A stretch of 64,000 nt of DNA, from positions 21,631,142-21,695,141 of the forward strand of contig NC_089722.1 in assembly GCF_035083965.1 (NCBI RefSeq), in the 5' to 3' direction. This DNA comes from Branchiostoma lanceolatum (taxonomy: Eukaryota; Chordata; Leptocardii; Amphioxiformes; Branchiostomatidae). This document shows positions 5,201-64,000 of this stretch, in pieces. A model generated the notes under the pieces. The model searched no databases. It saw only the letters and a program-made list of their open reading frames with translations, and was not told the origin of the DNA. The first letter of the stretch is position 1, and the number at the start of each line of letters is the position of its first letter. The translations under genes were made by a program, and so were the position numbers.

Positions 5201-8200
5201 TATCAATAGGTGTATTACCTATAAACAAACAAACAAACCTTCAGGTTAGCCACAAATGTGTTGGACCTGACCACATCCAAGGTCGTGACCCCAATGATCC
5301 TGTTGGGGTCGTAGGTGCCGGCAGCCTTGCACACCTCCGAGGCAATGGGCACTGTGGAGTTCACCTGGGTAAGGACAAGGAAATAACTGAATCATCACGA
5401 TAAGCGATGTCTGCTGTATATAGTTACACTGTGCTACCAGAACTATAGAACATGAATAACATGGTAAAGATAATTGCAAGAAGGCTGGTTTGCTAACCAG
5501 CAAGTGTAATCAACCTTCTTCCTACTGCCTAACTTCATATCCAATATAAAATGGCTACCTTAGCTGGTTGAAGGTTAAATCAAAAACAGTTTGAATATAT
5601 GTCATGTACATGGCAGTAACATGTTGCTTTCCAACTTTGAAAGTCAGACCTTCTTACATACAAACAGAACTGCATCCTCACCTCATCATTTTTTGAGAAA
5701 AAACATTTTTTGCTACCTTTAGCACACTGAAGTAGCCGTTTGGCAGTCAATGCACTATTGGTTATGGTGTTAGGCAGCAGGGAGAAGGTTAAAACTGTGC
5801 TTTATTTGAATAATAATATAGACGGTTTTGATTCAAGAGAACCCAATTTTTGGTAATTGTCACCCAATCAGAATTTATAGTCAATTCAGAAGGCCTCTGT
5901 TGGAAGATTTCCAGAGAACTTTCCCATGACGACTATCCAGCAAATGCCACAGCCTGACCTCCAACACTAGAGAGTTTTAGGGCAGCACAAAAATAGCCGT
6001 GGCTATCAGTTTACATCATAAGTTAGCCCCTCTGACAATCACAATATGGGGTTTGCTGGACTGAAACTCCAAAATGGTTGTTTGAATAAGAAAGTTATGT
6101 CGCTCTGCTTCTATATATATATAGCTGAACATTTAAATGGCTCCTGCCATTGACATCAGTAATTGATGCCTTCATTATGAAATCTACGTGGTCAGGAAGG
6201 ATGAACAAAACTAAACATTAAGAGTAAGATGTTTCGAAATATAGCTTCTTCATTTTTGGTCTTTCAAAACTTCTTCTTTGACTTTAGAGTTTATTTTAGC
6301 AGTCTATACAATAGTATCCATTTCACTTAATATTTTTTGCAATTTACAGCATGTATTTTCTCATTTTGCAGCTGCTTGTTAGTTTTTACGCTTTACAGTA
6401 TTGCTGAAAACTTTTGGGGGGGGGGAATGGACGAAAATTGATGCATTTGCGGATGTCATCCATATCATCAATTCAAAATGGTCTAAATACCAAAAAAGGC
6501 ATACTAAATCCAACATCCACTTCAGGATGCAGAATTGTCTGCTGACTTACAGGGTTAGTAATGAGCAGGAGGAAGGCAGTCGGACAGTGCTGGGTACAGG
6601 CCTTCACCAGGTCTCGTACGATGGAGGCGTTGGTGTTGAACAGGTCATCCCTGGTCATACCTGCAACAGATAAATTCAGATGTTTACACGTTTAGAAAAA
6701 GGTAACATGGTCAAAGCACAGACTCAAGGACAAAGCATGACGCTTTTTGTTAGCCAGTAGTGCAATGTGGCTTCGCTACAGCTCAAGTTTTTAGCACACC
6801 GGGTCACACCTACTCTCGTAAGTGTGTTGGATTCTTTTACTGGCAGAAGTTGGCTGCTTGAGGCCTATGCCTGAAGCTCCCTCGTACACGGGGCTGCTGG
6901 CTTTACGTCACCATCCGAAATGACGAATGCAATCCCTTACAACATTATGAACATATCCAAGCTGGAGTCGACCCTAGGATCGAACTCTTGCCCACGGATC
7001 CACTGAATTTTATCCAGACGGCCAAGCAGCAGGGCTGCGTTACCGCTCGCGCTTCGGGGACATGCCAAGATGATGGCTTTCCATCTTACCGGGCTTCCTG
7101 GGAACTCCAGCAGGAATCACCACAACCTCGCACCCTTCCAGACACGCCCCCAGCTCCGCATCGCCGAGGAAACCCTTGACCTCTGACCCAGTCTCGATGT
7201 GGCTGAGATCGCAGGCAACGCCGGGCGTGTGTGCGATATCATACAGAGCCAGCTGGGTGATGGTCGGGTTATGCTTCAGCAAGAGGCTCAGCGGTTGGCC
7301 GATTCCACCTGAGGCACCGAGTACCGCAACTTTGTTGTTACACTGGAAGAGAACAGTTGTGGTATTAATTGTTTGTTTGTTTATTTTTAATAACCTAAAA
7401 GAGGTGCTTTGTTTTTTATCAGTTCTAGTTAGTTTGTTTGGTTGATTGATCTGTAGCCAGAATAACTTGATACATTTCAGATTTCAATGACAATGGGCTG
7501 TTGAAAAATGGAGGGGGTCAAATACTGTAAAAGCAGAAACATTTGCTGGGATTTAACTTCGTGATAGGGAGAAAATGGACTCCGGTTGGAGTGTGCGCTG
7601 TGGATTTAAGTTTGCGGTTGGAACTGCCATGAATGGTCTTACTGTAAAAGGGAAAATGCAGCGGTTTTAAGTTTTTAGGTAAGAGGTCACTGTGCAAAAT
7701 GTGAACATAAATGTAAAACCACTGCAAGAATTTAACATTTTACAGTATACTGGTCTCTCTTTTCCAATTTATCAATGGGAAACAGTATCCAAGCTATGAT
7801 ACCACTTTATCTTTAACAGGAAGTCACAGAACAGAAAACACATTTTTCCGTCAGAAATATCCACATGTATGGTTCAACATATGTATGTTACATGATGATG
7901 TACATCAGAAGTAGCTTCAAGGTTACATCATCTGTTGCTGTTAATGATTAACCTCATCTGACAGCGAGTATGAAGTCAGCAAAAATCAAACGTATCGGTT
8001 TCCACCTTCCCACAAAAGTGTTTTCGTGACGATTATCTTTTGACCTTCATACGAACTTCAGTACTGTATATGTACAGTGCACAGCGCTCCTACATGCCAT
8101 GGCCTCAGGCCGTATCTCTGTACTGTTCATGCGGCTTTCACGTGCACAAAAATCCACTACCGGCGTTTGACTACTCCCACCGAACGGACGACAAACACCC

Positions 8201-11700: not shown

Positions 11701-12341
11701 ACACAAGGGGGAACAGCAGAAACATTTGTATTGCATTGGCGTACCTGATGCACCTCTACAAGTGGCCACTCAAGGTACCTGTAAATTCAATTGATTTTGT
11801 GGTGGTTTTATTTTGCGGTGGGAGGAAAAGGAAGGTTTCCCCCGTGTTTTGAATTCACAGTTGAAACAATTATGTAGTACAGTGTTCATGTAAGGGTAGC
11901 CTGAGTGCTAGCCTTTCTAGCTTCCGTCCGCTACCCTAGCTCCACTGCGCTACCCAAGCTCCGAGGAGCGGAGCTTGGGTAGCGTACGGAAGCTAAAAAG
12001 GCTGGCACTCAGGCTAATGTAAGGGAGATATGAATTTGCAAAATAAAACCTCTGTAACAGTTTCACGATTTACAGTATTATATAAAGCACATGTTTTAAG
12101 ACAGATTTCCTTGAATCATTGTCCATACCCTGTATTTGGAAATCAGTTTTTCGTACCCATTCCCAGGTTTCATATTGATTGTCCTCTTTTCCAGGATGCC
12201 TACAAACATATGCTGGGCTGCAAACACAACATCAGTCCCAACATGGGCTTCATCAAACAGCTGGGGCAGTGGGAGGAGAAACTGATCGGAGCAGACGTCA
12301 CCAACATAAGCGAGCGTAACTGTCATACTTGGATGCGTTGA
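8719..12341 (+). CDS. STYXL1: STYXL1-like pseudophosphatase, rhodanese plus dual-specificity phosphatase fold (9 coding exons)
   Basis: Exons 8719-8830, 9609-9667, 9824-9923, 10110-10178, 10462-10529, 10895-11040, 11303-11403, 11662-11774, 12195-12341; 915 nt, 304 residues (human about 313). The N-terminus matches MK-STYX closely ([19 protein letters not shown], then a Ser-His-Val segment); residues 1 to about 135 are the rhodanese/CH2-like domain and about 140-304 the phosphatase-like domain ([12 protein letters not shown] linker, [15 protein letters not shown]). In the P-loop, at residues 231-238, the phosphatase His-Cys-x5-Arg is replaced by FDTRGNSR: the general His is Phe, the nucleophilic Cys is Asp232, and Arg238 is kept. 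It cannot be catalytic; the family acts as a binding or scaffold protein. ATG at 8719 was chosen because it starts the conserved N-terminus. Confidence 0.95.
9255..9385 (+). repeat. Diverged interspersed repeat, copy 1
   Basis: The stretch with GGTCGGCTAAGTATTAAG, TACAAAGAACAAG and AACTAACCTAATGAAACTAT resembles 11105-11235, which has GTCGGCTAGGTAT, TACAAAGAACTTAA and TACTAACCTGAGGAAACTAT. Both lie in introns of STYXL1 in the same orientation. The class is unknown. Confidence 0.5.
11105..11235 (+). repeat. Diverged interspersed repeat, copy 2
   Basis: It begins with GCTCTGAGGAAGGTCACAGG and ACCGAGACGTCGGCTAGGT, a phrase typical of dispersed repeats; see the partner copy at 9255-9385. Confidence 0.5.
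11897..12016. repeat. Compound fold-back element in a STYXL1 intron
   Basis: Outer arms TAGCCTGAGTGCTAGCC and GGCTGGCACTCAGGCTA, a second stem CTAGCTTCCGT / ACGGAAGCTA, and an inner stem GCTACCCAAGCTCCG / CGGAGCTTGGGTAGC. The whole 120 bp can fold into one long hairpin. MITE-like; no protein. Confidence 0.85.
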
Positions 12342-13487: not shown

Positions 13488-16461
13488 TTATGATATAGCA
13501 GATCCACCGAAAGACAGAGCAACTTCAATGAGTTCTTTCCCAGTCTGACTGTGCACCCCGTCAGCACTAAACTCTGACGACAGCTCTCTCAGAGTAACAG
13601 CAATCCTCCGGCCAGTGATATCCTCTCTGTGAATGGCATGCATCCACTTGTGCCTAGCATCTCCGTACACCACGAGCAGAGACCTTCTCGGCATCGGTAT
13701 GGCAACTTCAGCATCACAGTACCTCAGGCTATTGCTCTCCGACATGTCCTGACTGCTTGTCATATCTTGGGAATCTGCAACTGTTAAAGCTTCGTTAGAT
13801 GGTACTAAAATCTCAGAGTCAAGAGTTGATGAGGTCCTTGCAACAGGTTTCTTGCCATGATCACAGTCGCTAGTTTGCTGTATGGTTACCTCAACTTTAC
13901 CTTTTTCTTCACATGACATGGTCAACACAGAGTCAGCTAGAAGATTGACAGTTACCAGCCGCTCCCCCCACAACCAGAAGTCGTCAAAGTGCGGGTCAAT
14001 GGCTGAACCCCTGGAGGGGTCGTAGTCAAGGTGACACTGTTCCACAGGGGTGAAGTCCTTCAGTAGGTCATGTGACTTCATCCTGTCCAATAGGGATGCA
14101 GAGAAGTTGGGCAGACCTGTGAAACACCCGAGCTTCAGTTTTTTCTTCTTGAAGTTGACTTTTGGGCCAAAATCCTTGAAATGAAAAAAAAACAAAAAAA
14201 CAATTCTCATTGAGAGTGAATTTAAACACAGAATCATCCATGACGCCTTTTATCTTTGTTCAACTGTTACAATACAGAACACAAAGTAAGACATACACTT
14301 AGTAGGTAGCCTTGTTTCAACCAAGCCCCGTGTCCGCTTGCCGCCTGTAACGGCTATCCACCCACGGGGAGGGGAGAGAAACCCCCGGACAGCTGGAGTT
14401 TGCGTTATACAGACTACTTAGTAGGATGGCCAAACAAGAGTAAAACAAGGAGGTAAAATGATGTAAAATACTGGTACTTGAAAGTTCATCAGACGTCATT
14501 CTGAATGGAGTTTAAACTGTAAATGCCAACACAATAAATTGGACTTACCCAAATTTTCGACTGATCAGCTCCAGTCTTTGTCAAGGAGTGAGAAATCCAC
14601 TGCTTCTGTGACGTCACGTTATGCAGATGAGACACGTGACTCGGAGAGCAGTGGATCATAGGTTGCAGAAAGTCTATGGCGCCCTCCGTCTCTGTTGAGG
14701 GATGGTTGTAATGCACGGATGTAGATGGACTCCTTAATCCCTCTTGCAAAAAATTCTTGCAAAAATTCTCTAAGGTCAAAACATTAGAGGCCAGTGCAAG
14801 GAAACGTACATTGGAGAGACTGAACGCTCACTGAAAACCCGTTTCAACGAACACAAGCGTCCAAGCACAACCTCTTCTGAAGTTTCTAAACACATACACT
14901 TAGAGTCGCCTGGACATTCGGTTTCATTGGACAAGGTTAAGATCCTGGACACAGAATCAGAATTTTTTGCAAGAGGGATTAAGGAGTCCATCTACATCCG
15001 TGCATTACAACCATCCCTCAACAGAGACGGAGGGCGCCATAGACTTTCTGCAACCTATGATCCACTGCTCTCCGAGTCACGTGTCTCATCTGCATAACGT
15101 GACGTCACAGAAGCAGTGGATTTCTCACTCCTTGACAAAGACTGGAGCTGATCAGTCGAAAATTTGGGTAAGTCCAATTTATTGTGTTGGCATTTACAGT
15201 TTAAACTCCATTCAGAATAAAATACTGGTAGGTTTGTAAAACCAATGTGGTTAGTACTGGTTACTTTAGCTTTAAGTTGTAAGACATGTCCTACCTGTTT
15301 CTTCCTCCCTGACTGAGACATCTTCCACTCAGCACCTTCTATCACAGTGACAATGTCAGCCTCTTCCTCTGGGGTTATAAAGTCTTCCACCACCAGCACC
15401 CCTGGGAAGTCCATCTCCTCTGTCTGGCACTGCGACCCTTCGATGTGACGCCAGGCCTTGTGGCACTGGTTACAGTACAAGTACCTCATTAGTCCTTCCT
15501 GTGGAAATGAGAAGGCAAACATATTGTTCTTGTGTTTCAGTTCTTCTTCTTCTTCTTTCGGTTAAGGCAGCCGCCTTCAACGTAGTGACGATTTTGCTGC
15601 CTTTCTACTACTGGAAGTCTACTGCAAGTTGGGAGTGAGGATATGAGATGTAACAAACCAGGGGTTGGGAATGGGAGGGGTGGGGAGTTAAACCTGTTGT
15701 TTGAAACTGTGAAGAGTTGAACTGAGGGTGACCGAGGCTGGAAGGCTATTCCAGTCCTCAGTCGTCCTGGGGAAGAAGGACTGTCTTCTGTACTCGGTTC
15801 TGGATGCAGAGACTCTGTACGCTGCCGTAAGCGAATGTCTGGACGAGCGGGATGGTGCCGCAGGGGTGGGGGCAACTATCGAGTTTATAACTACTAGACT
15901 ATCATGATACTTATAAAAAGTGATGAGTCTCGCTCTCCTCCACCTGGCTTGCAAGGTGGGCCACTTAAGTTCTTCAAGCATGTCCTGCACACTGGAGGTG
16001 CGTCTGAAACGGTTCTCCACCCACCGGGCTGCTCTACGCTGTACATTTTCCAATTTGTTAATTAGAAAATAGTTCCTACAACAAATCTCAGTTGAGCTTC
16101 TGGTTCTGGGGAAGGTATCTTGGCTGAAGCTACATCGATCTGTCTTTCGGAAGGGACACAAGATGATTGAGATTCGAGAAGGGGACTCATCACTCAGATA
16201 GGTACCTACTGGCTATACTAATGATGAATGATGACTGATCTATATCTGATTATTGATGCAACCAGTTCAGAATTACATGTATCATTCTGTTAATAGAATT
16301 TCTGAAAAATAATAAAATCTCATACACCATGTACAAAATAAGATTACCGCATTTCCCTGAGACGTTTTAACCGTCGTTATCTCTCCCTCACACAGCAAAC
16401 AAGTTCTGATGCCTTTACAGCCACATGTTTTGGCAAAATCATGTCCTGTGCTGTCGTCCAT
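13488..16461 (-). CDS. ALKBH4: ALKBH4, AlkB-family 2-oxoglutarate/Fe(II) dioxygenase (3 coding exons)
   Basis: Exons 16348-16461, 15295-15498, 13488-14174; 1,005 nt, 334 residues. Family members oxidatively demethylate protein lysine (actin) and have been linked to DNA 6mA; substrate here is inferred only. The N-terminus has the ALKBH4-specific Cys cluster C13-x-C15..C21-x2-C24 (CGCKGIRTCLLCE). The fold begins QSGRKKQ|DFGPKVNFK. Iron ligands are His168 and Asp170 in AIDPHFDDFWLWGER and the distal His285 in KWMHAIHRED; 2-oxoglutarate Arg lies in GRRIAVTLREL (about 295-302). Residues about 198-256 are a Ser/Thr/Asp-rich insertion, longer than I recall in the human protein. All junctions are phase 0. 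It is divergent from LRWD1 and carries a retroelement in each intron. Confidence 0.96.
14464..15230 (+). mobile_element. Penelope-like retroelement fragment with perfect inverted arms
   Basis: The arms 14498-14756 and 14960-15218 are inverted copies of 259 bp with no mismatch seen by eye. Between and into the right arm runs an open frame (14786-15097, plus) whose product has ETYIGETERSLKTRFNEH, FFARGIKESIYI and LQPSLNRDGG: the YIG, Arg, Glu and Asn of a GIY-YIG nuclease as in Penelope-like elements. The reverse transcriptase part is absent, so it is 5'-truncated. The 13-bp sequence TAAAATACTGGTA flanks it on both sides (14464-14476, 15218-15230), a clean target-site duplication. It sits in the ALKBH4 intron between exons 2 and 3. 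Confidence 0.88.
15537..16190 (-). mobile_element. 3' end of a non-LTR retrotransposon (LINE), truncated
   Basis: A minus-strand frame at 15688-16161 encodes about 157 residues with NKLENVQRRAARWVENRF, a leucine/tryptophan segment (LEELKWPTLQARW) and SFFPRTTEDWNSLPASV, the usual ending after the reverse transcriptase of CR1/L2/RTE-type LINEs. A short 3' UTR and a (GAA)n tail (plus TTC repeats at 15541-15555) follow. The polymerase core is missing: a 5'-truncated, dead copy inside ALKBH4 intron 1. Confidence 0.85.
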
Positions 16462-17064
16462 GCTGCTTTCTGCAAATTATGTGTAGGAAACCCGGAAGTG
16501 ATCACAAAACCTGGTTATCTCCATTGTCTTGATAGGGGTGCTACATTTATCACCTTCTACTGTTGAAATGTCGAAATATGTATATGTATTACTCATAAAA
16601 TCACAACTTAGTCTATTTCTAATGATAAGAGATGTATGAATATGGAAATTTTAATTGTCATCAATCATTTACTTAAAAAGCAATATTTTTGTTACCCCCT
16701 GTAAGAATGATGAAACAATCCGATGGTGACCTTTAATCAGCTGACCCAAGCGCGGGAAACCCACACAGCTGTTTAGGACACTCCTGATCAAGGTGGGACA
16801 CTTTCTCTACTTTCCATTTCATTTCACAGATACATACTTTTGGTTAAACAAAGCTTGTACTAGTATATAGAGTGCAAGATCTGTTTTGTAATTTAGTGAG
16901 TAACAGCTCTTGATACATTTCTTTATTCTTTGCTGCATATGCTTTACGTTATTAATTCCAGTCGCCATGTGTTGGGTGGGGAGGGGTGGTATTTTGTATT
17001 CGTATGATTATTTGCCATAACATGATGTACATAACATTTGTTTACAGGAAGATATATTCACAAG
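16462..17064. promoter_or_regulatory. Bidirectional ALKBH4/LRWD1 promoter region
   Basis: 603 bp between divergent start codons. It holds an ETS-type CCGGAAGT (16492-16499) next to ALKBH4 and an E2F-type GCGGGAAA (16752-16759) nearer LRWD1. A 5' UTR intron of LRWD1 probably ends at TTTACAG (17042-17048), because the ATG lies 16 nt after that acceptor; its donor may be the AAGGTGGGAC near 16790. Confidence 0.6.
16752..16759 (-). promoter_or_regulatory. E2F-type site upstream of LRWD1
   Basis: GCGGGAAA is the reverse complement of the E2F consensus TTTSSCGC. LRWD1 works with the origin recognition complex, so G1/S control by E2F is plausible but untested. Confidence 0.5.
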
Positions 17065-20000
17065 ATGCCACCTAGTCCGGCAGCCCTGGTGACAAAAGAG
17101 TTGATTTTGCAGAAGACGGGCTGCAAACAACTTTCTGATGTGGAAAAACTGGAGTAAGTGGTTACCAAAAGTATCAGCAGATCTAGTCAGCTATTATTGA
17201 ATTTTAAGACAGCTGGGTGTATCATTCAATTTTGACCGATTGATATTAGAAATATAAAGACTATAAAACAGTAAAATAATAAGTAGTTATTACTTAAGAC
17301 CAGGACGACATAACATGCAGGAGGCGCCTTCTATCCTGCATGCGGTATCAAGGTATGTATGGGTAACAGGTCTTTTCGCCCCCTGACCCGTTCGTCCCCT
17401 GGTCCTTTCGTCCTCATCATGGACATTTCGTCCTCCCATTTAACAACATCTAAACCCTAAATGACTAGTTATTTTATCACGTATTATTCAGATTCATTTA
17501 GATATTACTTTAAAAGTATTTTCCGGCAGCTAAACTCTAAAGTCTAAGCCGGCGAAGTACTTGCCGTTTCCAGACGAGTCATACTTCGATCGCGATACAC
17601 TTCCAGTCGGTCTTGGGCAGCGTTTTTCAAAATACAGTCCCATACAGTCAATTTTCTTGTCAAAATTTCATTTCAGTCAGCTCATTTACTCACACAAACT
17701 CCGTAAAAGGCGCCCACGGGCGATTTGCAACATGCGTAAACATCCAAGATGGCGGGCGCGGCGGCGGTGTTACGCGCCGATTTGAGGCACAAGACATGGT
17801 CACGTAAAAACTCAATAGTCCTCGAACGAAAGGCCAAATCATGCATATAAATGTGTCCTCGTAATGTCAAGACGTTCCTCAAGCCCCTGCAATAAAGCGG
17901 GGTATCTAAACTTCTCCAAGAAGCAAGATTTCTCGAGTTAAAGATGACACATTTTCCAAGGTTTTCCCTATGGTTTAAGTATTACACTCCGGACCAAGAA
18001 CGCACCATATGGGGGTTTCGCGGCATGCGGTTTGAGGGCGACACTCCACTGTTTCCGGGTCACACTCAGCGTGACGGCAGAATACTGGCAAGACAAAGCA
18101 AAAGAAATGTTTCGTGTTGCTTCTGATGACAGTTGACTGTGTTCGGGCGGGAAGCGCGCAAGGAGGCGGCCCACTGTAGTACACGTTTTAAAGTAACGTT
18201 AACGATGGCATTGTATATAATGTTCTGGCACACTTTCTACTTATACTGTTAAAATGTTTGGCTTTTATACCCTCCGAATTATAACTGAAAATCGTTCCAT
18301 GGACAACGTTAAGATTGCATTATCAAACGGGTTATACCCGCCAACTAAATACAGGCTTGATACTGTTCTTTAGCAAAACTTCGTAAGTGTTCTATAACAT
18401 ACTTAAAATACTTTTCCGTTTCACGTCTGTGCCTATATGGGTGTACACACGCCCTTCAGAAGGCAAGGTTAAAATTGGGTATGACCCAATTCTAAAATGA
18501 AAACTTTTCGTTTGACACCTGTGCCTATATGGGTATACACACGCCCTTGAGAAAGCAAGGTTGAAATTGGGTCAATGAAATGACCCAATTCTAAAAGGAA
18601 AACTTTCCGCCCTACGTCCGTGCCTATATGGGTGTACACACGCCCTTGAGAAGGCGAGGTTAATATTGGGTCAATGGAATATTTAATGACCCAATTCTAA
18701 AAGGAAAACTTTCCGTCCTACGTCCGTGCCTACATTGTTGTACACACGACCTTGAGAAAGCAAGGTTGAAATTGGGTCAATGAAATGACCCAATTCTAAA
18801 AGGAAAACTTTTTCGTCCTACGTCCGTGCCTACATGGGTGTAACGTTACACACGCCCTTGAGAAGGCGAGGTTGACATTGGGTCAATGGAATGACCCAAT
18901 TCTAAAATGAAAACTTTTCCGTTTGACGTCCGTGCCTATATGGGTGTACAAATGACCTTGAGAAGCCAAGGTTGAAATTGGGTCAATGGAATGACCCAAT
19001 TCTAAAAGGAAAACTATTCTGTTTGACGTCCGTACCTATATGGGTGTACACACGCCCTTGACAAAGCAAGGTTGAAAATTGGGTCAATGAAATGACCCAA
19101 TTCTAAAAGGAAAACTTTCCGCCCTACGTCCGTGCCTATATGGGTGTATACACGCCCTTGAGAAGGCGAGGTTAATATTGGGTCAATGGAATTATTAACG
19201 TCGACCCAATTCTAAAAGGAAAACTTTCCGTCCTACGTCCGTGCCTACATTGTTGTACACACGACCTTGAGAAAACAAGGTTGAAATTGGGTCGATGGAA
19301 TGACCCAATTCTAAAATGAAAACTTTTACGTTTGACGCTCGTGCCTATATGGGTGAACACACGCCCTTGAGAATGAAGGTTGAAAATTGGGTCAATGAAA
19401 TGACCCAATTCTCAAATGAAAACTATTCTGTTTTACGTCCGTGCCTATATGGGTGTACACACGCCCTTGAGAAGCCAAGGTTGAAATTGGGTCAATGGAA
19501 AGACCCAATTCTAAAATAAAGTACTTTTCCGTTTGACGTCCGTGCCTATATTGGAGTACAGATGCCCTTGAGAAGCCAAGGTTGACATTGGGTCGATGGA
19601 ATGACCCAATTCTATAATCAAAGACTTTTCCGTTTAACGTCCGTGTCTATATGGGAGTACACACGGCCCTGAGAAGCCAAGGTTGAAATTGGGTCAATGG
19701 AATGACCCAATTCTAAAATGAAAACTTTTCCGTTTGACGTCCGTGCATATATGGGAGTACACACGGCCCTGAGAAGCCAAGGTTGAAATTGGGTCAATGG
19801 AATGACCCAATTCTAACATGAAAACTTTTACTTTGACGCCCGTGCCTATATGGGTGTACACACGCCCTTAAGCCGGCGTCAATATTCATGCGAGCGTCGG
19901 CCGAATTCGTAAATCGCCCAAAGCTCGCCGAATTTCAAAATCGCCCGAGCATATTTGGATCAATTTGATTTCTAAAAATTGACCGAAGCCCGCATAATCG

Positions 20001-23000
20001 ACAGAACGTCGGCCGTCCTTCGGCCGAAAATACCCATTTGGAGCTCGCCGACACGTCAGCCGAGCTGAATTCTTGATTTGTGACGGGGGTTTAAGAAGGC
20101 AAGGTTGACATTGCGTCAATAGAACGAGGGCATTGTATATAATGTCCTAACACACTTTCTAGTTTACACTGTTTTCAGTTCTTATACCCTGAAAATCATA
20201 GCTAAGAGCGTTTCTTAAGAACGTTTAGAATTGCATTATTAAGCGGGTTCTATCCGCTAACTAAAGACGGGAAACTCTTGTTTGGAAAAGTTTGTAAGTT
20301 CTATTCCATACGTGTGAGTTTTCATTGTTAGGAACTTACGGTCGTACACTATAAGGACGGAATGTTTTTTGCACTCTTAGTGGCTTTTGTGTAATTTATA
20401 CCCATATAACCTACTTTCCAAGCAGAGGTCGTGGGGGAAGATTGACTTTTTTTATCATATGCCTCGTTGGTTATACACCCACTTCTTAGGACGGACAATT
20501 CTTTTATGTCCGAACTGTGGCGATCCTTTGAAGCGGTTTCAACTTTGCACTCTTAAGGGATTGTTTCTACATATACTGGTCCAATTTCAACCTTGCATTC
20601 TACAGTTGTAAAGGGCGTGTTCATACCCCTTCAGGCACGGACGTAGGACGGAAAAGTTTTCATTTTAGAATTGGGTCATTCCATTGACCCAATTTCAACC
20701 TTGCCTTCTCAAGGGTGTGTCTACACCAATATAAGCACGGACGTCAAACGGAAAGTCTTTTATTTAAGAATTGGGTCATTCCATTGACCCAATGTCAACC
20801 TTGGCTTCTCAAGGGCGTGTGTACACCCATATAGGCACGGACGTCAAACGGAAAGTCTTTTATCAATTTCAACCTTGCCCTCTCAAGGGCGTGTGTACAC
20901 CAACATAGGCACGGACGTAGGACGGAAAAGTTTTTATTATAGAATTGGGTCATTCCATTGACCCAATGTCAACCTTGCCTTCTCAATGGCGTATGTACAC
21001 CAACATATGTACGGACGTCAAACGGAAAAGTTTTCATTTTAGAATTGGGTCATTCCATTGACCCAATGTCAACCTTGGCTTCTCAAGGGCGTGTGTACAC
21101 TCATATAGGCACGGACGTAGGACGGAAAAGTTAAGTTTTAGAGTTGGGTCATTCCATTGACTCAATTTCAACCTTGCATTCTCAAGGGCGTGTGTACACC
21201 AACATAGGCACGGACGTAGGACGGAAAAGTCTTTGATTATAGAATTGGGTCATTCCATTGAACCAATTTCAACCTTGGCTTCTCAAGGGCGTGTGTACAC
21301 CAACATAGGCACGGCGTAGGACAGAAAAGTCTTTGATTATAGAATTGGGTAATTCCATAGACCCAATTTCAACTTTGGCTTCTCAATGTCGTGTGTACAC
21401 CCATATAGGTACGGACGTCAAACGGAATGTTTTCATTTTAGAATTGGGTCATTTCATTGAACCAATTTCAACCTTGCCCTCTCAAGGGCGTGTGTACATC
21501 AACATAGGCACGGACGTAGGACGGAAAAGTTTTCATTATAGAATTTTGGGTCATTCCATTGACCCAATGTCAACCTTGCCTTTTCAAGGGCGTGTGTACA
21601 CTCATATAGGCACAGACGTCGAACGGAAAAAGTTTTCATTATAGAATATTGGGTCATTCCATTGACCCAATGTCAACCTTGCCTTTTCAAGGCCGTGTGT
21701 ACACCCATATAGGCACAGACGTTGAACGGAAAAAGTTTTCATTATAGAATTATGGGTCATTCCATTGACCCAATGTCAACCTTGCCTTTTCAAGGCCGTG
21801 TATACACCAATATAGGCACAGACGTCGAACGGAAAAGTTTTTATTATAGAATTGGGTCATTCCATTGACCCAATTTCAACCTTGGCTTCTCAGGGGCGTG
21901 TGTACACCCATATAGACACGGACGTCAAACGGAAAAGTACTTCATTTTAGAATTGGGTCATTCCATTGACCCAATTTCAACCTTGTCTTCTCAAGGGCGT
22001 GTGTACACCCATATAGGCACGGACGTCAATCGGAAACTGTTTTTATTTTAGCATTGGGTCATTCCATTGACCCAATTTCAACCTTGGCTTGTCAAGGGCG
22101 TGTGTACACCCATATAGACACGGACGTCAAACGGAGAAGTACTTCATTTTAGAATTGGGTCATTCCATTGATCCAATTTCAAACTTGGCTTCTCAAGGGC
22201 GTGTGTACACCAACATAAGCACGGCGTAGGACAGAAAAGTCTTTGATTTTAGAAACGGGTCATTCCATGGACCCAATTTCAACTTTGGCTTCTCAATGTA
22301 GTGTGTACACCCATATAGGTACGGACGTCAAACGGAATGTTTTCATTTTAGAATTGGGTCATTCTATTGACCCAATTTAACCTTGCCCTCTCAAGGGCGT
22401 GTGTACACCAACATAGGCACGGACGAAGGACGGAAAAGTTTTCATTATAGAATTGGGTCATTCCATTGACCCAATGTCAACCTTGCCTTTTCAAGGGCGT
22501 GTGTACACCCATATAGGCACGGACGTCAAACGGAAAAGTTTTCCTTTTCTTGAATTGGGTCATTCCATTGACCCAATGTCAACATTGCCTTCTCAAGGGC
22601 GTGCGTACACTCATATAGGCACGGACGTAAGACGGAAAAGTTTTGATTTTAGAATTGGGTCATTCCATTGACCCAATTTCAACCTTGCATTCTCAAGGGC
22701 GTGTGTACAGCCATATAGGCATGGGCGTCAAATGGAAAAGTTTTCATTTTAGAATTGGGTCATTCCATTGACCCAATGTCAACCTTGGCTTCTCAAGGTC
22801 GTGTCTACACCCATATAGGCACGGGCGTCAAACGTAAAAGTTTTCATTTTAGAATTGGGTCATTCCATAGACCCAATTTCAACCTTGCTTTCTCAAGGGC
22901 GTGTGTACACCCATATATATATAGGCACGGACGTCAAACGGAAAATCCTTTCATTTTAGAATTGGGTCTGCTTTCATGAAGGTTGCCTCCAGAGTGCCGA

Positions 23001-26000
23001 AGCCACCGTCTTCTTTGGGCTTCTCCAACTTTTCCCGGAACTCAGCCCTCTTAGTATGTCTCAACTGCTTCTGAGCAAATTACAAATTAGCTTACCGCAG
23101 CGAGCACAGACACTTTTGGTGACGTATGCCCGGTAGGTGTCGTCTGTTTCGTACTGGGCGCCCAGTAAGGATCAGTAAGGAGCCGGTTAATTTGCACTGC
23201 ATGACAAATCATAAAATAAGAAAAGTATTCTAACATATCTTTGAATAGAACGTGAAGATTGACCACACTTCCGCGTTCGGCCGCAAGCCCTTCTGCTACG
23301 ACCCGGAAGTAAATTACGCCTGATAATGCTGAAACGGTAGCACGGAAACCCCCATGCAGTGCGAAATCTACGACAGAATTTAACACAAGAAGGCTCATTT
23401 GGGGCCAACTTTGAGTGTGCAAGTCTCGTTCGAAAATTATATTTGGATCTCCAAGTGTATCGCAGGACCTTGGACAGCTTCTTGACATTACGGGGACACA
23501 TTTATATGCATGATTTGGCCTTTCGTGCGAGATCTATTGAGTTTTTACGCGACCATGTCTTGTGCCTCAAATCGGCGCGTAACAGCGGCGACATGATGAT
23601 GTCCCTCGCCGCTCGCGCGTCACTTTAGTCATGTTAGTGTCGGTTTTCCAACGTGAAAGACTTGAGAAAGCAACACTGAAGGTTTTTTGAGATGTTATGA
23701 TGAAAATTGAGTACTTTGTAATTGTGAGACAAGCGTCATCCTAGAATGTCCATGACGGGGACGAAAGGACCCGGTGACGAACGGGTCAGGGGGCGAAAAG
23801 TCTTGTAACCGTATGTATGTTGTGTAGCTAATGGCAGGAGTCAGCAGGGTAATTAGGGTTAATGATAGAATACTGTAAATGCAGTAATGTTCGTGAGGAT
23901 TTAATTTAATTCAGCGGTAGGGAGAAAATGGAGTGTTCGTGGTGGTTTTCAGTTTGCGTTTGAAACAAAAGTAAAGCTACAGTCACACAATGGAACGGCT
24001 TTTCGCGGTGTTTTTAAGTTCGCGGTAAAGAGTTCACGAAAACCGTGAACATAAAACCACTGCGAACATTTCTGCATTTACAGAAGTGTATTGCAAGTTA
24101 GACAATAGTTTTTACGTGTCTAGTCGTCAGAGTATGAAAGATTTGTAAATGGGAGGCAGGGAATTAGATAACAATAACATGGAGATGTGCTAGTTGGGGA
24201 GGTATTGTGCGGTAGGTGTTGGAGGTGAGAAAACATCATGACTTAATTGCCTATTTCTTTTGTTCCATTGTGTTCTTTTTAACACCTTTTTACTTTGGTA
24301 ATCAGTGATCCTCACATAAGCAAAGGAGGAACACACCCTGTTTTATTATTGAGTGAATGAATGTAATTATCATTACTACTACTAGCTGGAACTGTGGACA
24401 GAGATGCAACTTTTATTTGCAAATTCATGCCTGTAGGCAAATTGCAAGGGTACAAACACTACAGTAAAAATATCACTACAGTAAAAGTATCTATTCTAAA
24501 CATCTAAGTAATATTTCTACAAACATACATTCAATCCTTATACTTTAATATGACAATTGCCTAATACCATTTTCTTTGCACAGCCTGTCAGATCTAGGTT
24601 TAGAGACAATAGATGGAGACCTCTTCTCTCAGATACCTAACCTCCAGGACCTCAACTTATCGAAAAATAAACTGGCAGCCTTTCCTGAACACCTTGGGCT
24701 CTGCAAGCTACAGGTTCTTGATGTTAGCAACAACCGCATGAGGTCCTTCCTGTCCCTAGCACAGTTCCAGGAGCTGCAACAGGTCAACATACAGGATAAC
24801 CCCTACACTGTAAGTCTCAATTGGACTTATCATATCAAAAACTTGCATTTATAAGGTTGGACAAGTCTACTAGCCCTATTGCCCAGGGCAAGTGACACTA
24901 GGCAAGTGGATGTCCTCCTCTACTTGTCAGGTTGGGTTAGTGCAAATTTTTGGACGCCCTACACGCTAATAAAAATACCCAGATTGAAATATTCTTCAGC
25001 CCCAGGTCAACAAGTTTGCCTTGACCAACCAAACGTATGTCGCAAGGATGTTTCTTAGCACTTTGATGACACAAAAATACAGTAAAAATATGTAAAATGT
25101 TACCATTTCCTCTGTTCAGGATAACACATACACTGTAAGTCTCTGGAGTCATCCTGTATGAAAACATTGGCATTTAGAAGAAGGGAGAAATTTGTTTGAA
25201 AAGTTTGAACAGTTTCAGAATGGAGATAGGGAGCAAGACATCTATCCCTTACTGCTATACATGGCTCATACACGATTTGCTATAATTCTATTTGACAGTT
25301 GGTTGAAGAAGAGTTGGATAAGGAGTGGCCTAAACCGAAGGAATCTCCTACCTGACTGTAAACTCTACTCTACTCATTATCAATTTGTTCACTCTATTCC
25401 CCCTTCTCTAGGCAGCAGACCGAGAACAGCTGACCTTCCTCCTCCCCAGACTGAAGTCAGTAGATGGGGAAACAATCCAGGACAGCCACAGGCAGTATCT
25501 GAAGAGGGTGTTTGGGACTTCATTGGAAGAAAAGGCAGGTTACAACTATCTCTGAAATGTCTGCCAATCTATATTAATTGTGGTCTACTGGCAGCTATGA
25601 CAGCCTGAATTATTTGATATGAATTGTATTACTACAAACCTTTGTTTTATTTTGATAAAAGATGTGATGTCTTTAATCTCTAATACATATATTACAAAGT
25701 ACCAATCTTATTGAATTTCTATCATATGATAACGGAGAAGTTAACAACAAAAACTTTGGATAATTGGCAGACATAGCAGGACTAGATATTGTTTATCTAC
25801 ACCGTGTAGATGCACAATTTCTAGTCCTGTTATGTCTGCCAACTACTACACCCCCTTTCCACTAGAGTACTAGTGCAACCACTGAGCAACCAAAGATTTG
25901 ACAGATCACTCAACAAATTGCATAGAAAAGAGCCAATTTTTGTGTGTGTTTTGTTGTCTTTTAAGTTATATATGTGATATATATCTTGCATCATTTTCCA

Positions 26001-29000
26001 ATTATGAAATCAAGGGTTACACAAATCCAAATTTGGTCGTAGTACGGTTTCTAAGTGATGGCTGTCAAGTAGTAGAAAGGGGGTCTTGCATGAAGGTTCA
26101 AATGCAGATACAAATGTTGGTAGAGGCAATGTCGTGTTGCTCTAAAAAGTACTGATTTGTCATTGACAGGTGGAAGGCTTGTGGGAGGCTCAGTTCAAGA
26201 AGCTGTTCCGCATGAGTCAGTCTGCAGGTGTTCAGCGTCTGCTGCAGGACCAGTTCATTCAGACGGCCAAACAGAAGATACAAGCTGGGCCCGCCTCTAT
26301 GGAACAGCTCAGGGACTGGAGGGTAAGTTGTTCTGATTTTGTAACAGGTAAATGAGGACCATTATGGATCATTGCTAAACGTTGGCTGAGTCTCGCAGGC
26401 CACTTGGTATGTAGTAAAGAGCCAGCCGGAAGTGTCCCGCTTCGAACCCCTGACACAAAGAGAGGGGTTGGTCGTCCAATTTCACAACACTGAAAAAACT
26501 CCTAGAAAGAGGAACTAACTTAGAAGGACATGAACATCTCTCAGCAATGAAGGACAAGCAGTTTTGGAGAATCAATTTTGCTTGCTCATAACAAGGAGGA
26601 CCGTTGATGATGATGATGAGAAGAGAACACTTCAATCAACTTGACCTCAAGCATACTGGTATAACCTGTCAAGCTTCACTCTTACAATTGTCTTTGCCTG
26701 CAGTAAAGATGGGTATATGATAATCAAGTATGTTCTTGGTGATGACAACTGGACATAAAATGCTTTTTAGGTTTTACAGGTATCTTCCGAATTTTATTCT
26801 GTACCTGTTTGGTGATATGCTTTCAACACTGCATGAATCAAGAAGAAAAAAACATGTTTGTTTTTCCATGTTGGTATTGTATTTATGTTGCAGAGTGCAC
26901 ATAATTAGCATAAATTTGTATATGAATAGGTTTGTCTGAACTACATGTATAACTGGAAGACAACTGTGCATAGGTGTCATTAGAGTCATGTACATGGTAA
27001 GTTGTCACTGTTCCAGTACCTGGAGGGGACACTAACTGTGATGTCAGTAACAAAAACTCCTCAGTAGGTTCATGTTCTTTTTCTTAGACTCAGTAGAAAA
27101 AAAATTTTCTCCATTGTGTTTTAGGTAGATTGGTGTTTTCAAGTTTGTAAGGGGTATACAAGTGAAGAAAAGAATTAAAAAATTCACAAATGTAGTCTAG
27201 TTATTAAAGTTTTCTTTACTTCTGCAGCTATACCCTCTGAATTATCTGATCTTGTATTACCTGTACAGAATTGTTATTGATGTATTTGTTTTCAACTAAT
27301 GTGTGTACCAACTGTAGCTAGGCCCTTTGGAGAACAGGTCATTTGTCAAGACTTAAACTGCTATTGAGTAACGGTTAGATGATATTGAGATTTAAATGTG
27401 TTCATAAAACATTGCCTGTTTTGTGGGTATTTTGTACATTTCAACCATTTTTCTCTGTTTTACATTTACAGATTGAAACTATCGCAAGCAAGCTTGTAGC
27501 TGAACAGGACTTGAATACTGTCAAAGGAGAAGCTAGCATGTCATCAAAAAGGTCACATAATGACTCCTCCACCAATGGGGCATCATCTGATGCAGTAGCA
27601 CCCAGCAAGAAACCAAGAAATGTAACATCCAATGACGATGTCACCAGTGCAGCTGACAACGTTTCTAATGATAAGACTGTTAGGACCAGAAACGCGAGGG
27701 TTCAGATTGAGATCCTTCCTAAGACACTGGGAACGACACTTGCAAAGAAAGTAATGAGAAAACCTGCCACAAAAAGAGGGAGTTCTTCTCTTACACTCTA
27801 TAGCAAGGTAAAGAGTCATTGCAAGTTCATTGTAGTATCTCTGTGTTGCTGACATACGCTGGTTTTGAACACTTAAGGTTGGTGGTTAGGATGGTTAAAC
27901 CATCAAGCAATGTATGCATATCGATCTATTTCTTGTTTAGTATTTAGTGAGATGGTAGCTAGAAATATGTATTGCATGGTATGTTGGAAATAAAGTACAA
28001 TTCAAATTGCTTTTCCTAAATCAACTACCTTCTTAGTGCAGCCAAGTGTGCATGTTTCAAAGAACCCGCTTTAGCTAAGAATGGTTTTCTTGTATGTGTT
28101 TAAACATTATCCCTACTAGAACTTATCTCCAATATTGACTGATGATGATCTGTTATTATCTGCTATTATTTCCCAGGACAGCACTGCAGACTATGAGCCC
28201 TCCCACATCCTTCAGTGTCACTCATTTAAGAATAACAGGGATGACATGAAGACAATGGTCTGGAAATGTGTCTTTGAACCAGATCCTGATAACACAGGTA
28301 CACACATCTTGTCTAGTGATGAAAAGACAACTTCTGCCTTTGATTGTAACATATGCAAAGCGAGATATCCATGTTTGTACTTTACATTTGATTCCTCGCT
28401 TGGATTTGTATGAGTTGATTTTTTAAAAAATCATGTAAGATAATGTGAACAAATAAGTGCACTAATTTTTTTCGGGAATTGCCTCATATGCCAGTGATAG
28501 TTTTTGCATTTGTAGTTGTATCTGCTAAAATAGAGTTTGTGATTTGAATACTAACATATCTTGTTATTGTTCTATCCCAGAGAAAAGTACTTCCATTGTG
28601 GCCACTTGTGGTGGGGAGTCAGTCTGTCTGTTGGACTGCAGGACTGGAAAAATTGTGCAGAAGTTCTCCCAACCAAGAGAGGTATGATTTTTGTGATTTG
28701 TAGACATTTCAGTGATATTTTGATACGATAGTAGATTTGAATGACTTTTGTTCCATAGCACCTGGAATGCTAGAGACTAACATCTACTAACATAATTTCA
28801 CCAGGGCACAAAATTCTGCCACTCTGAAAAGATATGTCCAAATAGATCTCCAGCCCAACGTCACCCAGTATAATTGCACTACTGTATATCTAAACTGTGC
28901 ATACCTGGGGTTGCTGCACTAGTTATCTCTCAGACCCACTGTATATGTTAGATTTCCTTTTTTTGTACCCATAGGACTTCTTTTGTGTTGCTTGGATGAC

Positions 29001-32000
29001 AATTCCACTTGATGGCAAATGTGAGAAGATGACTAATATCCTGGTTGTGGGAGGGAAGAGAGGGAAGATTTACCTGATCCACCCACAACAGAACATCTGG
29101 TATGCCGAGCACGAGGCACATCGCAGGGACATATGCTCCATGGTGGTGTACCCTGACCAACCCTCGTGGATGTACAGTAGGTCACGTCTATGTGTCTGCT
29201 CATCTAATAAATCTGAGATTCTGTTTTCATGTTGATTTTCCAATCTAGCATTTTTTTAAAAATTCCGTTAATATATTATTGGTGTGGCCTTAGTTGGTTT
29301 GTGAAAGTAAGGAAAACTTAAATGAATTCATGTATTACTTTCTTTGCAATCTGAAGCACAATAATTATTATTTAGAACGATTCTTAATCATTGCAAGATA
29401 GGGCAAGATATTGTGTTGACAGGCTTATAATCTTATTCTGCTTTCTCTTGTCTGACATTTAATAGTCCTCATGTTTTGTTCCAGCTGGCTCCTATGACAA
29501 AACCATCAGGCTGTGGGATATCAGTCCACCTAAGCTGCCCAACTATGAGTGCAGAATCAGGTAAGAAGGCTCTTGTGGATATGTTCATAAAGTTCCCTTA
29601 ATAGACTGTATACTTTTGAACACTGAATTTGGAGTCTGTGTTCTGTCAGTTTGTTTTTTAGTGGGGATCTTTGAAGATTATTTTTTGTGTGTTTTCTACT
29701 TAATTTACAGAAAACTGGCTGAGTGGTCCCCACCATCCATCCCCCTCCACATGCTGCTTTTCCCAGATCGTAATCTACTACTCGCTGCCTGCAGGTCGGG
29801 CTGTTTTAGCTTCATGTTGAACCACAAGGAGGATGACTGGAAGAAGTTAGTGAATTATTGTTCTCAATTTTTAACCTTCTCCCTGCTGCCTAACTCTGTA
29901 ACCAATAGGGAATAGCGTGCCAAACGACTACTTCAGAGTGCTAAAGGTTAAAATTTACCTCCGTTTAGCAAAATAATGCTATTTGGAATGCAACAATGCA
30001 ACAACCTTACTTAGTATTTGGTTGTATGAATGGCAAGGCAATGGATTTTTCCTTACAATCTAACACAGGAATGATTTCAAATGTCTAATAGAACTAGAAT
30101 TCTATGCCAAATTTGATGTATGCAATTGGTGACCTCCAAATATCAAAAGAACAAAACAATAGAAAATTAAGAAGACATTTATGATTGCATGATTGCATTG
30201 TGATATATTTTATACTTTATTTACACTTTTTGATTTTCACTTTTCTTTTTTGGTTTGCTATAGGACCTACACCACAGAGTTCACCTTCCCAAAGGTGGAG
30301 AAATGCACAGAGGATGGAGAAGAGGTTGAGACTGAGTTCATGGACAATATGACCTTGATTTCTTCAGAGGTCATTGGTAAGCTCTTCACCCATGTACAAC
30401 ATATGTACTAGTACATATCATGATGTACAGTGGACATCATTCTAATTTGTCCTTTTTTGTGCCATTTTTCTATTCAGAGCCTCACCCGCAGTATATTCAA
30501 TATACCTAGGGGAGGCTTGCTAAACAGGGCTGAGAAGACGAAACACATTTTATTTCCAAGTGTCTATTTAACAGTGACGAAAGAACCGAATTATTTAAAC
30601 AAGTTACCACGAAGTGCCCCTACTTTTACACACTCACGGATGAACAAAAAGCTACCTTTCTCTTGAAATCACAGAACCCACAAATTCTAAAAAAAGTGGG
30701 ACTTTTCGTCTTCCACTGCTTCCGAAAAAGAAGTCAAACCCAGCTAGTTTAGATATAGCCAACAATTGTATTTAGTACCAGTAGCCTATTGTTACAACAA
30801 AGTCAGACGCAGTTTACTGACGCATGTATGTTTTTCTCTATGTTTTTACCAATATATTTGCAATTAGCCCACGGGCATGAACTTCTAAGCTTTATTTTTA
30901 CTTTTGTGGGAATGGCCTCTAAGTAGCTGTCAGCCAATCAGAGAATCAGTTTACCTGAAGAAAACATGCAGGCCATTCTCTGATTGCATTATCTACCCAA
31001 TATATACTAGTATTGTATAGTATAGGGCCTTGGTATGGCTCTGTGTAGGAGAATGTTTACGCACAGGAATCATATTGAAAAACTAAATATCTTTGCTCTA
31101 AATTTTTTCAGCTTCCAAGTTGGTGGGACACGGGTGCATCTACCTGTGGAACTTGCCACCAACCCTCAAACGCTGTGCCAAAATCAAGGTCAAGGGTCCT
31201 CGATCCTTGAAGGTTCAGCCAGTGGCACAGCTGGAGTGGAGTAAGACATTTCTAGACTACATCTACTTCAAGATGTGGCCTGGTAAGGACATGCATGGTG
31301 TTGACAGATTATCGCTTTTGTTTTAGATTTGCCAAACAGCATGGATGTGTTTAAAACTGTTATGAAGTGTACATGTATTTTTGATTAGTCTATTCAACTG
31401 TTATCACACTGTGAACCATGTTTGTTGCAATATGACATGCATATGTAATGGTATGTATAGAGGTATTTAGGTCTTTCTTTTAACCTCCTACTATTTATTC
31501 GCTGTTAGCTTTTTGCAGACTAGCAGACCAAAAATGAAACCACTATTGTTTTGGCTCAGAACTGACGGCTTTACCTTGTTTTGTTCAGGCTATGATGTGT
31601 TAGTGTGTGGTGATGACGTGGGAAACACCTGGATGTACGATGTGTCCAAGTTCCTGACCAGGAAGTGGCCAGAGGACACACCTGTCCCTCCTGCACAGGT
31701 AACAACTCCCTTTGATCTAAATTTGCACTTTTTACATATTCTACAGTTGTTCCTGATTTCAATACATGTATGTCATATTTGTACCACTGTATGTTTTGTA
31801 ATGTTTCAATAGCCCAGATTATTCTGGCTTTTATCATTGACTTTGTAGAAAGTGTCTTAAAGTTAGATGACTGACATTTCTTTGTCTTTATCAATCTTCC
31901 AGAAACTGTTATGGCCAGATTGCACTTGGAATGGGACCAGGTTATCAAAGGAGTCAGATGACGATGAGGTAGGGTATGATTTGAAGTCCATGTTGATTTA

Positions 32001-40852: not shown

Positions 40853-43283
40853 TTCAGCATTGCAGTGTTCAGGGAATTCATCTCCAATTTACTGTACTAT
40901 GGAAGAACCTCACATTGACGTATGCTATGTAGCAGAAAGCCTGCTTCAGTATATTGTTGATAATAAGGCAAGATACTAGTAAGCAGTTGATGCCTATCAA
41001 TCGCAAGCATTCAGGGTCTGATGCATGGCAGCTACAGACAAGCATAAGTCTCGCCTGGCTGATCTACTGTGGGTGCAGAACCTCTTATTAAGCCTTGTCT
41101 GCATTGTGCTTTGCATTGAAACATGTGGTAAGCACATGTAATGAACTGAACCTGTATGCAAATAATTAAGACAAACTATTGTAATGTAATATTGCAAGCA
41201 AGATGAGAAATAAAAAGAACAATGTCAATATCATTGATGTATTCATTGCTTTCTGCCTGAGATAAAATATATGTACATGTAGCTACGGCGACTCTGGTGG
41301 GAAGACATATTTTGTTTGTATATTATATAGTGTCTTCCTATATAATGCAAGCAAAATACATTTTACCTCGAGAGTCGCTGCGGTTAATGTACATGTAATG
41401 CTCCTGGGAAAGTTAGTTGTCAGGTCAGCCATGTTATTGGCTTCTGGGTTACTTGCTAAGTTTGCATTTGTCCAGGGTAGGTCTTCACTTGAACCATCAC
41501 AATAGACCAGAAGCTCCTTTTTTGACATGGCAGGTGATCATAATACACATTGTGCAGTCATATACAATAGTAACCCAAGGAGTGTAGATCAGAAAATATT
41601 ACAAATATCAAAAAAACCTCTTGGAATGGAGTCTATGTTGTTCAGTGCAGACATCCAAAGAGTAACCAACATGTCCCTGCATACACTTAATGGATTCAAC
41701 CTTTCTCACGCAGCGGACATGATAGAATGAAAACGAGGCCAATGAGGCAAAGAAACAAATAATTCACAGCATCCACTCCAATTTAGTTTTCCTCTCAAAT
41801 GAAACGAAGTTTTAAAATATAATATCCTATCATCAATATTTTAACTAGTGTAGATCTAGTGCACAGAAAAGATGCAACAACTTAGAGCCATTTGACTGAT
41901 CTCATAGTCCTGCCTCGAGATGTAGAAATGCAAAATAAAAACAGAAATGCAGACATTTGACGGATATGCAGCCACTATCGATTATCTAATTACCATGTAG
42001 TCATTGATTAAACTGCTAATTGTGATGGACAGTTAGGATCGGTCTTATGTTTGCCACAATGGCATCATTTTCATTCTATCATGTCTGCTGCCTGTATTGG
42101 AGGCAAGGTCTGAATCTGGAAAGAAAGAGTTAATGACCCAACACTGGGGTCAACTTGCTTATGTACAAATCTATGCTGCTAAGATACAAGACAGACAAGG
42201 GAAGATTATGGTGCAAAGTGAACTTTATTGGAAAAATAGACAAAGCAAATCACCAGTACACAAAGTACTTATATCACACAATCACATCTATAGTCTGCTT
42301 CATTCACATCTTTTTAAGGTTTTGCTTCATTATTTGTTCTCTCATGCAGTAGAAAGCAACAATAGTAATTTCTCTATAAATATCCATGATTCCCACATAA
42401 ACCAGCTGATCACTCAAGCTATGCTGACAACATAAATTTTCCCAACGATGTATGAATGTACAAACTATTTCAGTAGGCGGCTTTGATTTTAGTCATAGAA
42501 ATCTAATGCTTGTCTCCATATAATCTGATTCTGGTACGTGTAAAAACAGCTGTAAGTTTGGAAACCTGATAGGAACTTGTCTTTATAAACTGTACAGTCT
42601 TGGACAATGTGTAATGTACATTAACATGTAAATCCGGCAAGTGAGACGGCCTCATTGCACAAGATGAAGTGGATGGTTCTCCAGAAAACAGGCTTTTTTA
42701 ACAAAACCATTACTGTAAAAATATTTCTGTACAAAGTAATGAAAACTTTTGCTATCGTTGATATCACTTCAGTGGTCAATGCCAGAGATGTTGTGATTTC
42801 CAGTTAACATAAGAGATGTCAAATATCTTTATTTGGTATTCAATAATTAAAAGCTCTCCTTAACTATCCAACACAAGTAAGTAATAAACATAATTTAGCT
42901 AACAAAAACTACTTGTAGCAATAATATGTACACAGCACCTCATATAACATAGCATATTGCAGAGCTTGTATGTCAGAAATGCCATCAAGTTTGTCATCAC
43001 ATCTAACAGTAAGGTCTTTCCCCTGAAGGACTCTTTATTAGCAATATTTGTACAGCTTTTAAGTAAAGTCAACTACAGAGCTTTGCTACACAAGACAAGA
43101 AGCTGAAAAGAAATCTAGTTTATAAGTCAATGTTCTGGTGGGACTTAAGTAAGACAGTAACACAAGCTACAGCCTGTTTCCTGAATTTCTGTCATGTTTC
43201 TTTGTATGATGGCATCTCTGAAAGTAGGTTGCAGTGATTGCACTTGTGGCAGTAAAGTTTGCAGCTGATTTGAAACTACAGAT
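40853..43283. other. Convergent MRM1/AKAP1 3' region
   Basis: No exon of a known family on either strand. It should contain both 3' UTRs: AATAAA at 41209-41214 for MRM1, and a minus-strand AATAAA (plus TTTATT, 43034-43039) about 245 nt past the AKAP1 stop. The rest is AT-rich with nothing recognisable. Confidence 0.45.
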
Positions 43284-51907: not shown

Positions 51908-52146
51908 ACTTATTCTGGGATCGTGATTTGACAGCAGGAACATGTATATATTCACAGGCCAGATCCTTAAAGACCACAAAAATTCCCCTTAAATCAGACA
52001 GAAATAGCACATTCATTACTTAGTTATAAATAGTACAGCTGTTGTGATACTATATACTGGGTTTTATTCCCCATATTTACTTTTCTTCTGTATTAATCGA
52101 AAAAATGCAATTTCTTTTTTTTTTGCGTATTGCGGCGCTGATGCCA

Positions 52147-52154
52147 TGACGTCA
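52147..52154. promoter_or_regulatory. CRE palindrome
   Basis: Full TGACGTCA about 560 bp before the ULK start codon; expected to bind CREB/ATF-type factors. Confidence 0.55.

Positions 52155-52710: not shown

Positions 52711-64000
<11,290 letters not shown>

Follow-up and report, generated by a model that had tools for sequence, protein, structure and literature searches.

Drosophila Foldback (FB) and the sea-urchin TU elements have long inverted ends made of tandem units shorter than those described below, with target-site duplications of 9 bp and 8 bp, respectively, while the fold-backs of the Galileo / P superfamily duplicate 7-8 bp. Tetris of Drosophila virilis is a non-coding fold-back element with tandem arrays in its inverted termini; the majority of fold-back elements appear to be Mutator members, and their arrays have been suggested, with reference to work on Galileo, to serve as extra transposase-binding sites (PMC4079207). 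Rehavkus shows 9-bp duplications, inverted ends of 26-400 bp and a minisatellite before its 3′ end (PMC6446971), and the beetle element Rehavkus-1_TC carries arrays of a 164-bp unit, mostly of 5 and 8 monomers, in its inverted termini (PMC10218199). Tm1 of Meloidogyne, a family of Mutator/fold-back type, has composite inverted ends in which units are repeated in tandem (PMC3169594). Mutator-like elements (MULEs) span a duplication range of 8-11 bp; evidence for them in chordates is limited, and transposases were not findable in those reported for Branchiostoma floridae (PMC6446971). The subject of this report is a 6449-bp element at 17362-23810 of a 64,000-nucleotide stretch of contig NC_089722.1 (the window), which lies between perfect 9-bp direct repeats and is probably a non-autonomous DNA transposon of fold-back design, mobilised by a transposase of Mutator/Rehavkus type.

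The direct repeat GTATGTATG extends no further on either side and directly abuts the inverted tips; with the ends fixed, nine flanking bases match by chance with a probability of about 5e-6. The left end of the element reads GGTAACAGG and the right end, as reverse complement, reads GGTTACAAG. The borders and inverted ends comprise the following features, the subterminal repeats having been located with Tandem Repeats Finder (TRF):

17353-17361, + strand: left copy of the target-site duplication, GTATGTATG, identical over its 9 bp to 23811-23819
17362-17427, + strand: outer terminal inverted repeat, left, 66 bp, 89.4% identical to 23810-23745 (E 2e-19)
17375-17413: 16-bp subterminal tandem repeats inside the left outer terminal inverted repeat (TRF)
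17762-17894, + strand: second terminal-repeat block, left, 133 bp, 88.7% identical to 23590-23458
23458-23590, - strand: second terminal-repeat block, right, 88.7% identical to 17894-17762
23745-23810, - strand: outer terminal inverted repeat, right, pairing with 17362-17427
23811-23819, + strand: target-site duplication, right copy GTATGTATG, identical to the left copy

An earlier note on this DNA had proposed a fold-back transposon with a 9-bp target duplication, naming a 9-bp direct repeat at both borders and inverted ends. The repeat is exact at 17353-17361 and 23811-23819, the inverted ends amount to 66 bp at 89% and 133 bp at 89%, and together with the opposed arrays described next they support that proposal. 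When the window was scanned throughout for direct repeats of 8-10 bp next to inverted ends of 16 bp (up to 4 mismatches, element length 100-9000 bp), 118 pairs resulted, mostly self-matches of the arrays; ten simulated first-order sequences gave 8 pairs in total, of which one had 3 mismatches and the others more. The 16-base tip alone is thus not decisive, and the ends are judged non-random because of the 66-bp extension and the 133-bp second block.

Between these ends lie two opposed minisatellite arrays with a common unit of 100 bp (TRF):

18410-19867, + strand: left minisatellite array, 14 full units and the first part of a 15th (TRF, unit parse)
20091-20130, + strand: remainder of the split unit 15, left array (unit parse, BLAST matches to units)
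20320-22968, - strand: right minisatellite array (TRF, unit parse), its inner 3 rows (20320-20657) degenerate

The right array was parsed into 27 rows, namely 22 full, one truncated, one partial and the three inner degenerate ones. Minus the two most degenerate inner rows, the two arrays (18410-19867 and 20545-22968) account for 3882 of the 6449 bp, and alignment of 18412-19867 with 22945-21486 yields 1268 identities, 153 mismatches and 74 gap columns. The long inverted ends are accordingly built of tandem units in opposite orientation, as in fold-back elements. The opposed arrays of the earlier note therefore stand, while its count of about 15 and about 24 units of about 101 bp becomes 14 full units plus a split one on the left and 22 full units plus others on the right, the unit length of 100 bp being close to the former estimate.

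The unit consensus of 18410-22968 harbors a palindrome, AATTGGGTCA-N6-TGACCCAATT, with a 10-bp stem and a GGGTCA-N6-TGACCC core. A stem of this length is seldom reached by chance (3 of 1000 mononucleotide shuffles); it is conserved at 0.957 versus 0.902 for the rest of the unit, and 329 of 358 base-pair cells are paired over 36 units. Each of the ten pairs is of one Watson-Crick type only, so that a selected hairpin finds no support from compensatory change. We take the GGGTCA half-sites to resemble nuclear-receptor half-sites.

A second, related element is found at 56 kb, which shares an interior core of 240-260 bp with both arms of the large one:

56017-56025, + strand: second element, left target-site duplication GCAGATTTT, exact match to 56604-56612
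56026-56603, + strand: second element, 578 bp long, with 137 identical positions in its inverted ends of 149 bp
56604-56612, + strand: second element, right target-site duplication GCAGATTTT, exact match to 56017-56025
17761-18024, + strand: core, left arm of the large element (BLAST, nhmmer profile of the three copies)
23591-23340, - strand: core, right arm of the large element (BLAST, nhmmer profile)
56223-56465: core, second element (BLAST, nhmmer profile)

The next match of the nhmmer profile in the window has an E value of only 0.59. Alignment of the left arm with the second element scores 93 against a shuffle maximum of 31, and that of the right arm 62 against 34. In both elements the duplication is exactly 9 bp, which together with the long inverted ends corresponds to MULEs; immediately inside its tips the second element has 10-bp tandem repeats. 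The window carries two elements alike in duplication length and in their interior, not two copies with the same tips.

Coding content was assessed by Pfam scans of 8 of the 37 open reading frames (ORFs) of at least 55 amino acids in the large element, 3 of the 18 of at least 30 amino acids in the second element and 18 of the 33 of at least 110 amino acids in the window. None of the frames scanned in the three sets contained a transposase. For the eight of the large element this agrees with the earlier note; they gave no Pfam match above cut-off at all, and thus none to the PHD finger of the Rehavkus transposase, which a non-autonomous copy would lack anyway. One ORF of the second element gave sub-threshold matches only (Phage_Hfq, E 0.094; CBM_3, E 0.23). 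Elsewhere in the window, matches above cut-off were obtained for Ldh_1_N (malate/lactate dehydrogenase), TMEM128 and a SpoU-type RNA methyltransferase domain, which fit animal DNA; Rfam at gathering thresholds and ARAGORN detected no RNA or tRNA in the window. Antisense ORFs run through the core and are alike in its three copies, the other two being 59% and 36% identical to the first. A protein-coding core was rejected nevertheless, since the differences are spread evenly over the three codon positions (32/35/33 for left-right, 25/24/25 for left-second and 26/29/30 for right-second, with 1, 89 and 76 out-of-register columns excluded, respectively) and the three antisense ORFs belong to no Pfam family. 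From its pattern of substitutions the core looks conserved as DNA rather than as protein.

The composition of the insertion is unlike that of its locus, as indicated by a step in CpG content at the borders. The CpG observed/expected ratio is 0.99 in the large element versus 0.48 upstream (15300-17352) and 0.34 downstream (23820-25800), and 0.86 in the second element versus 0.31 and 0.25 in its flanks; among 179 equally long windows that do not touch the large element, the maximum is 0.76. Both elements thus look younger than the surrounding CpG decay, or protected from it. The CpG content and the exact duplication together suggest, but do not prove, that the inverted ends already differed by 11% at insertion.

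For the history of the arrays, 37 of the 43 parsed rows were aligned, four short and two highly degenerate rows being left out. The mean unit distance is 0.140 within the left arm, 0.146 within the right arm and 0.147 between the arms, and a difference as large as this is reached in 686 of 2000 label shuffles, so that no arm-specific groups are apparent. As the distances within and between arms are alike, the arms draw on one pool of variants. An inherited unit order was rejected: with 14 units of the left arm and 22 of the right, permuted orders did as well as the best co-linear runs of 3, 4, 5, 6 and 8 units in 403, 264, 465, 466 and 418 of 500 permutations, respectively. A shared pool without shared order argues against strictly arm-by-arm homogenisation. 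In the left array two-unit blocks five units apart differ by only 3.8-4.0%; in the right array units nine apart differ by 5-7%. A few neighbouring units within arms differ by about 4%. Local tandem duplication within the arms took place after the shared pool had arisen. The pool itself may be explained either by exchange between the arms through fold-back pairing or by one inverted duplication of an already varied array that was scrambled afterwards.

Several observations weigh against a Mutator/Rehavkus-type fold-back transposon with exchanging arms. The inverted ends are patchy: between and beyond the two 89% blocks the arms are unequal in length and align poorly. One chance pair from the simulated sequences equals the element's own 3 mismatches in 16 terminal bases, and GTATGTATG is itself repetitive, occurring four times in the window versus 0.52 expected. 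No second copy of the tips is found by BLAST within the window; the two tips of the second element, compared with the left tip region only, are equalled in score by 45 and 142 of 200 shuffles. For an exact pattern of 25 tip bases, viral contigs and prokaryote genomes gave no match, although neither collection is expected to contain such an element. High CpG ratios also occur elsewhere (0.84 in the 2-kb bin 48001-50000 and 0.81 in 52001-54000). Since neither a transposase, within the ORFs scanned, nor a further copy with these tips was seen, the grounds for Mutator/Rehavkus movement are confined to the duplication length and the layout. No unit order common to both arms was detected, so that exchange between them is not told apart from a common pool that expanded separately in each.

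The repetitive nature of GTATGTATG, together with the proneness of inverted arrays to misassembly, would suit a local palindromic minisatellite locus with chance edge repeats, or an assembly artefact, without any transposon. This is very improbable, as the duplication abuts the tips exactly, the tips match over 66 bp at 89%, the CpG content steps at both borders and the second element repeats the pattern. Another superfamily with 8-9-bp duplications might have converged on the fold-back shape; Merlin and hAT would be examples, as their duplications can be 8-9 bp. The 7-8 bp of Galileo/P elements does not agree with the duplication found here, which is exactly 9 bp and extends neither way. Fold-back elements do vary in their transposase, Galileo having one of P type (PMC3169594). 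Convergence of this kind is nonetheless improbable, given that both elements have exactly 9 bp and that most fold-backs seem to be Mutator (PMC4079207).

A narrower alternative retains the Mutator/Rehavkus affiliation and takes 17362-23810 for a true Rehavkus element whose PHD-finger transposase has been lost, as opposed to a fold-back offshoot of an ordinary Mutator-like element. The 9-bp duplications, 26-400-bp inverted ends and minisatellite of Rehavkus (PMC6446971) and the 164-bp-unit arrays in the inverted termini of Rehavkus-1_TC (PMC10218199) speak in its favor. Against it, the ORFs scanned yielded neither a PHD finger nor a transposase, and Rehavkus is listed from arthropods and annelids only (PMC6446971), which leaves this origin conceivable and on balance doubtful. 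On duplication length and layout, the superfamily of the element is likely Mutator/Rehavkus.

For a non-autonomous fold-back transposon of this type, a Mutator- or Rehavkus-type transposase made elsewhere would recognise the conserved outer ends, excise the element and reinsert it with a 9-bp stagger. The arrays would be passengers, grown by tandem duplication inside each arm, and the arms would exchange units by fold-back pairing or arm inversion; alternatively, the arrays would stem from a single inverted duplication of an already varied array, the order of which was scrambled later. The 578-bp element at 56 kb would be a small relative with the same core between different tips. A more far-reaching proposal, which we consider unlikely, is that of a new Mutator/Rehavkus-type fold-back lineage, possibly chordate, whose inverted arrays of 100-bp units share their variant pool by arm exchange and which delivers about 36 candidate protein-binding palindromes in a CpG-rich island.

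Apart from ends, arrays and core, the element contains the following segments:

18201-18402, + strand: segment A, on the outer side of the left array, direct repeat of 20123-20311 at 73.5% counting gaps
19868-20090, no strand assigned: nested small element splitting unit 15, with TTAA flanks and imperfect inverted ends of about 10 bp, boundaries accurate to a few bases
20123-20311, + strand: segment A′, between the arrays, direct repeat of 18201-18402 (150 of 187 aligned bases)
22969-23457, no strand assigned: right-arm segment with no clear left-arm counterpart, from 23340 the weakly matching end of the core

The divergence of A from A′ exceeds that of the inverted-end blocks, and the nested element is CpG-rich (observed/expected 1.78). 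Exon-like sequence is found on the minus strand at about 22969-23190, with a CxxC motif and a GT...AG stretch that measures just 25 bases. Of its two exon-like pieces, one gave a sub-threshold Pfam match to Kri1 (E 0.036, 15 bits versus a cut-off of 25.2) and the other none; against the PDB one had no match and the other an E value of 0.96 at best. A captured gene fragment in the right arm is possible. Derivation of the unit from the inverted ends, as in Tetris, finds no support in eight comparisons of the outer and A segments with the unit, in which 12-175 of 200 shuffles score equally high.

Elsewhere in the window, a 120-bp palindromic element at 11888-12025 with a 9-bp duplication ATGTAAGGG and ends TAGCCTGAGTGC is a third candidate insertion with a duplication of this length. 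A candidate 107-bp inverted-end element at 41271-41395, flanked by the palindrome ATGTACATG and with 4 mismatches in 16, may be due to chance. The inverted repeat 14498-14757 / 14959-15218 (260 bp, 100% identical, 201-bp spacer) is either a recent inverted duplication or an assembly artefact; the gene near or around it is presumably ALKBH4, for which the Pfam match is sub-threshold. Further dispersed repeats, 80-88% identical, are located at 289-455 / 28778-28940, 47078-47255 / 60486-60673 and 5715-5794 / 29869-29948.

In comparison with the described systems, the element resembles Tetris in its long inverted ends, outer flanking domain and internal arrays, which in Tetris consist of about 220-bp repeats in variable number, as well as in the duplication (8-10 bp) and in the existence of a small relative, DAIBAM, that has Tetris ends (PMC4079207). 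One copy of Tetris is described with 3-4 units in its left end, and longer arrays (up to 66) presumably expanded within Tetris itself (PMC4079207). By description, the systems differ in unit length (about 220 bp versus 100 bp here) and in the 37 bp that the Tetris unit has in common with the outer domain (PMC4079207), whereas none of the eight comparisons made here is clearly above the shuffles. With Rehavkus the element shares the 9-bp duplication and a minisatellite inside or beside the inverted ends (PMC6446971, PMC10218199); again by description only, Rehavkus differs in encoding a PHD-finger transposase and in being listed from arthropods and annelids only (PMC6446971). Tm1 likewise has mostly 9-bp duplications and includes non-coding members and others resembling miniature inverted-repeat transposable elements, in contrast to its units of about 14 bp (1-9 per end), its asymmetric 7-bp end motifs and its known Phantom-like transposase (PMC3169594).

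Searches limited to open-licence papers gave no title that names a fold-back element of this kind for amphioxus/Branchiostoma; Repbase is outside this scope, and the family may be published. If the host is a chordate, the element would extend an insect and nematode design to a group with limited evidence for Mutator (PMC6446971), and it offers a test case for the evolution of inverted arrays. The earlier note had inferred a chordate fold-back family of this design, matched to no named one. The lack of a match holds for the sequence family, which was compared with the named ones by description only, and not for the design, which is known from flies (Tetris, PMC4079207), beetles (Rehavkus-1_TC, PMC10218199) and nematodes (Tm1, PMC3169594). 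Jointly, the accounts of Tetris, Rehavkus-1_TC, Rehavkus and Tm1 cover the main features of the element, namely the outer domain, the arrays, the unequal unit numbers, the duplications and the small relatives.

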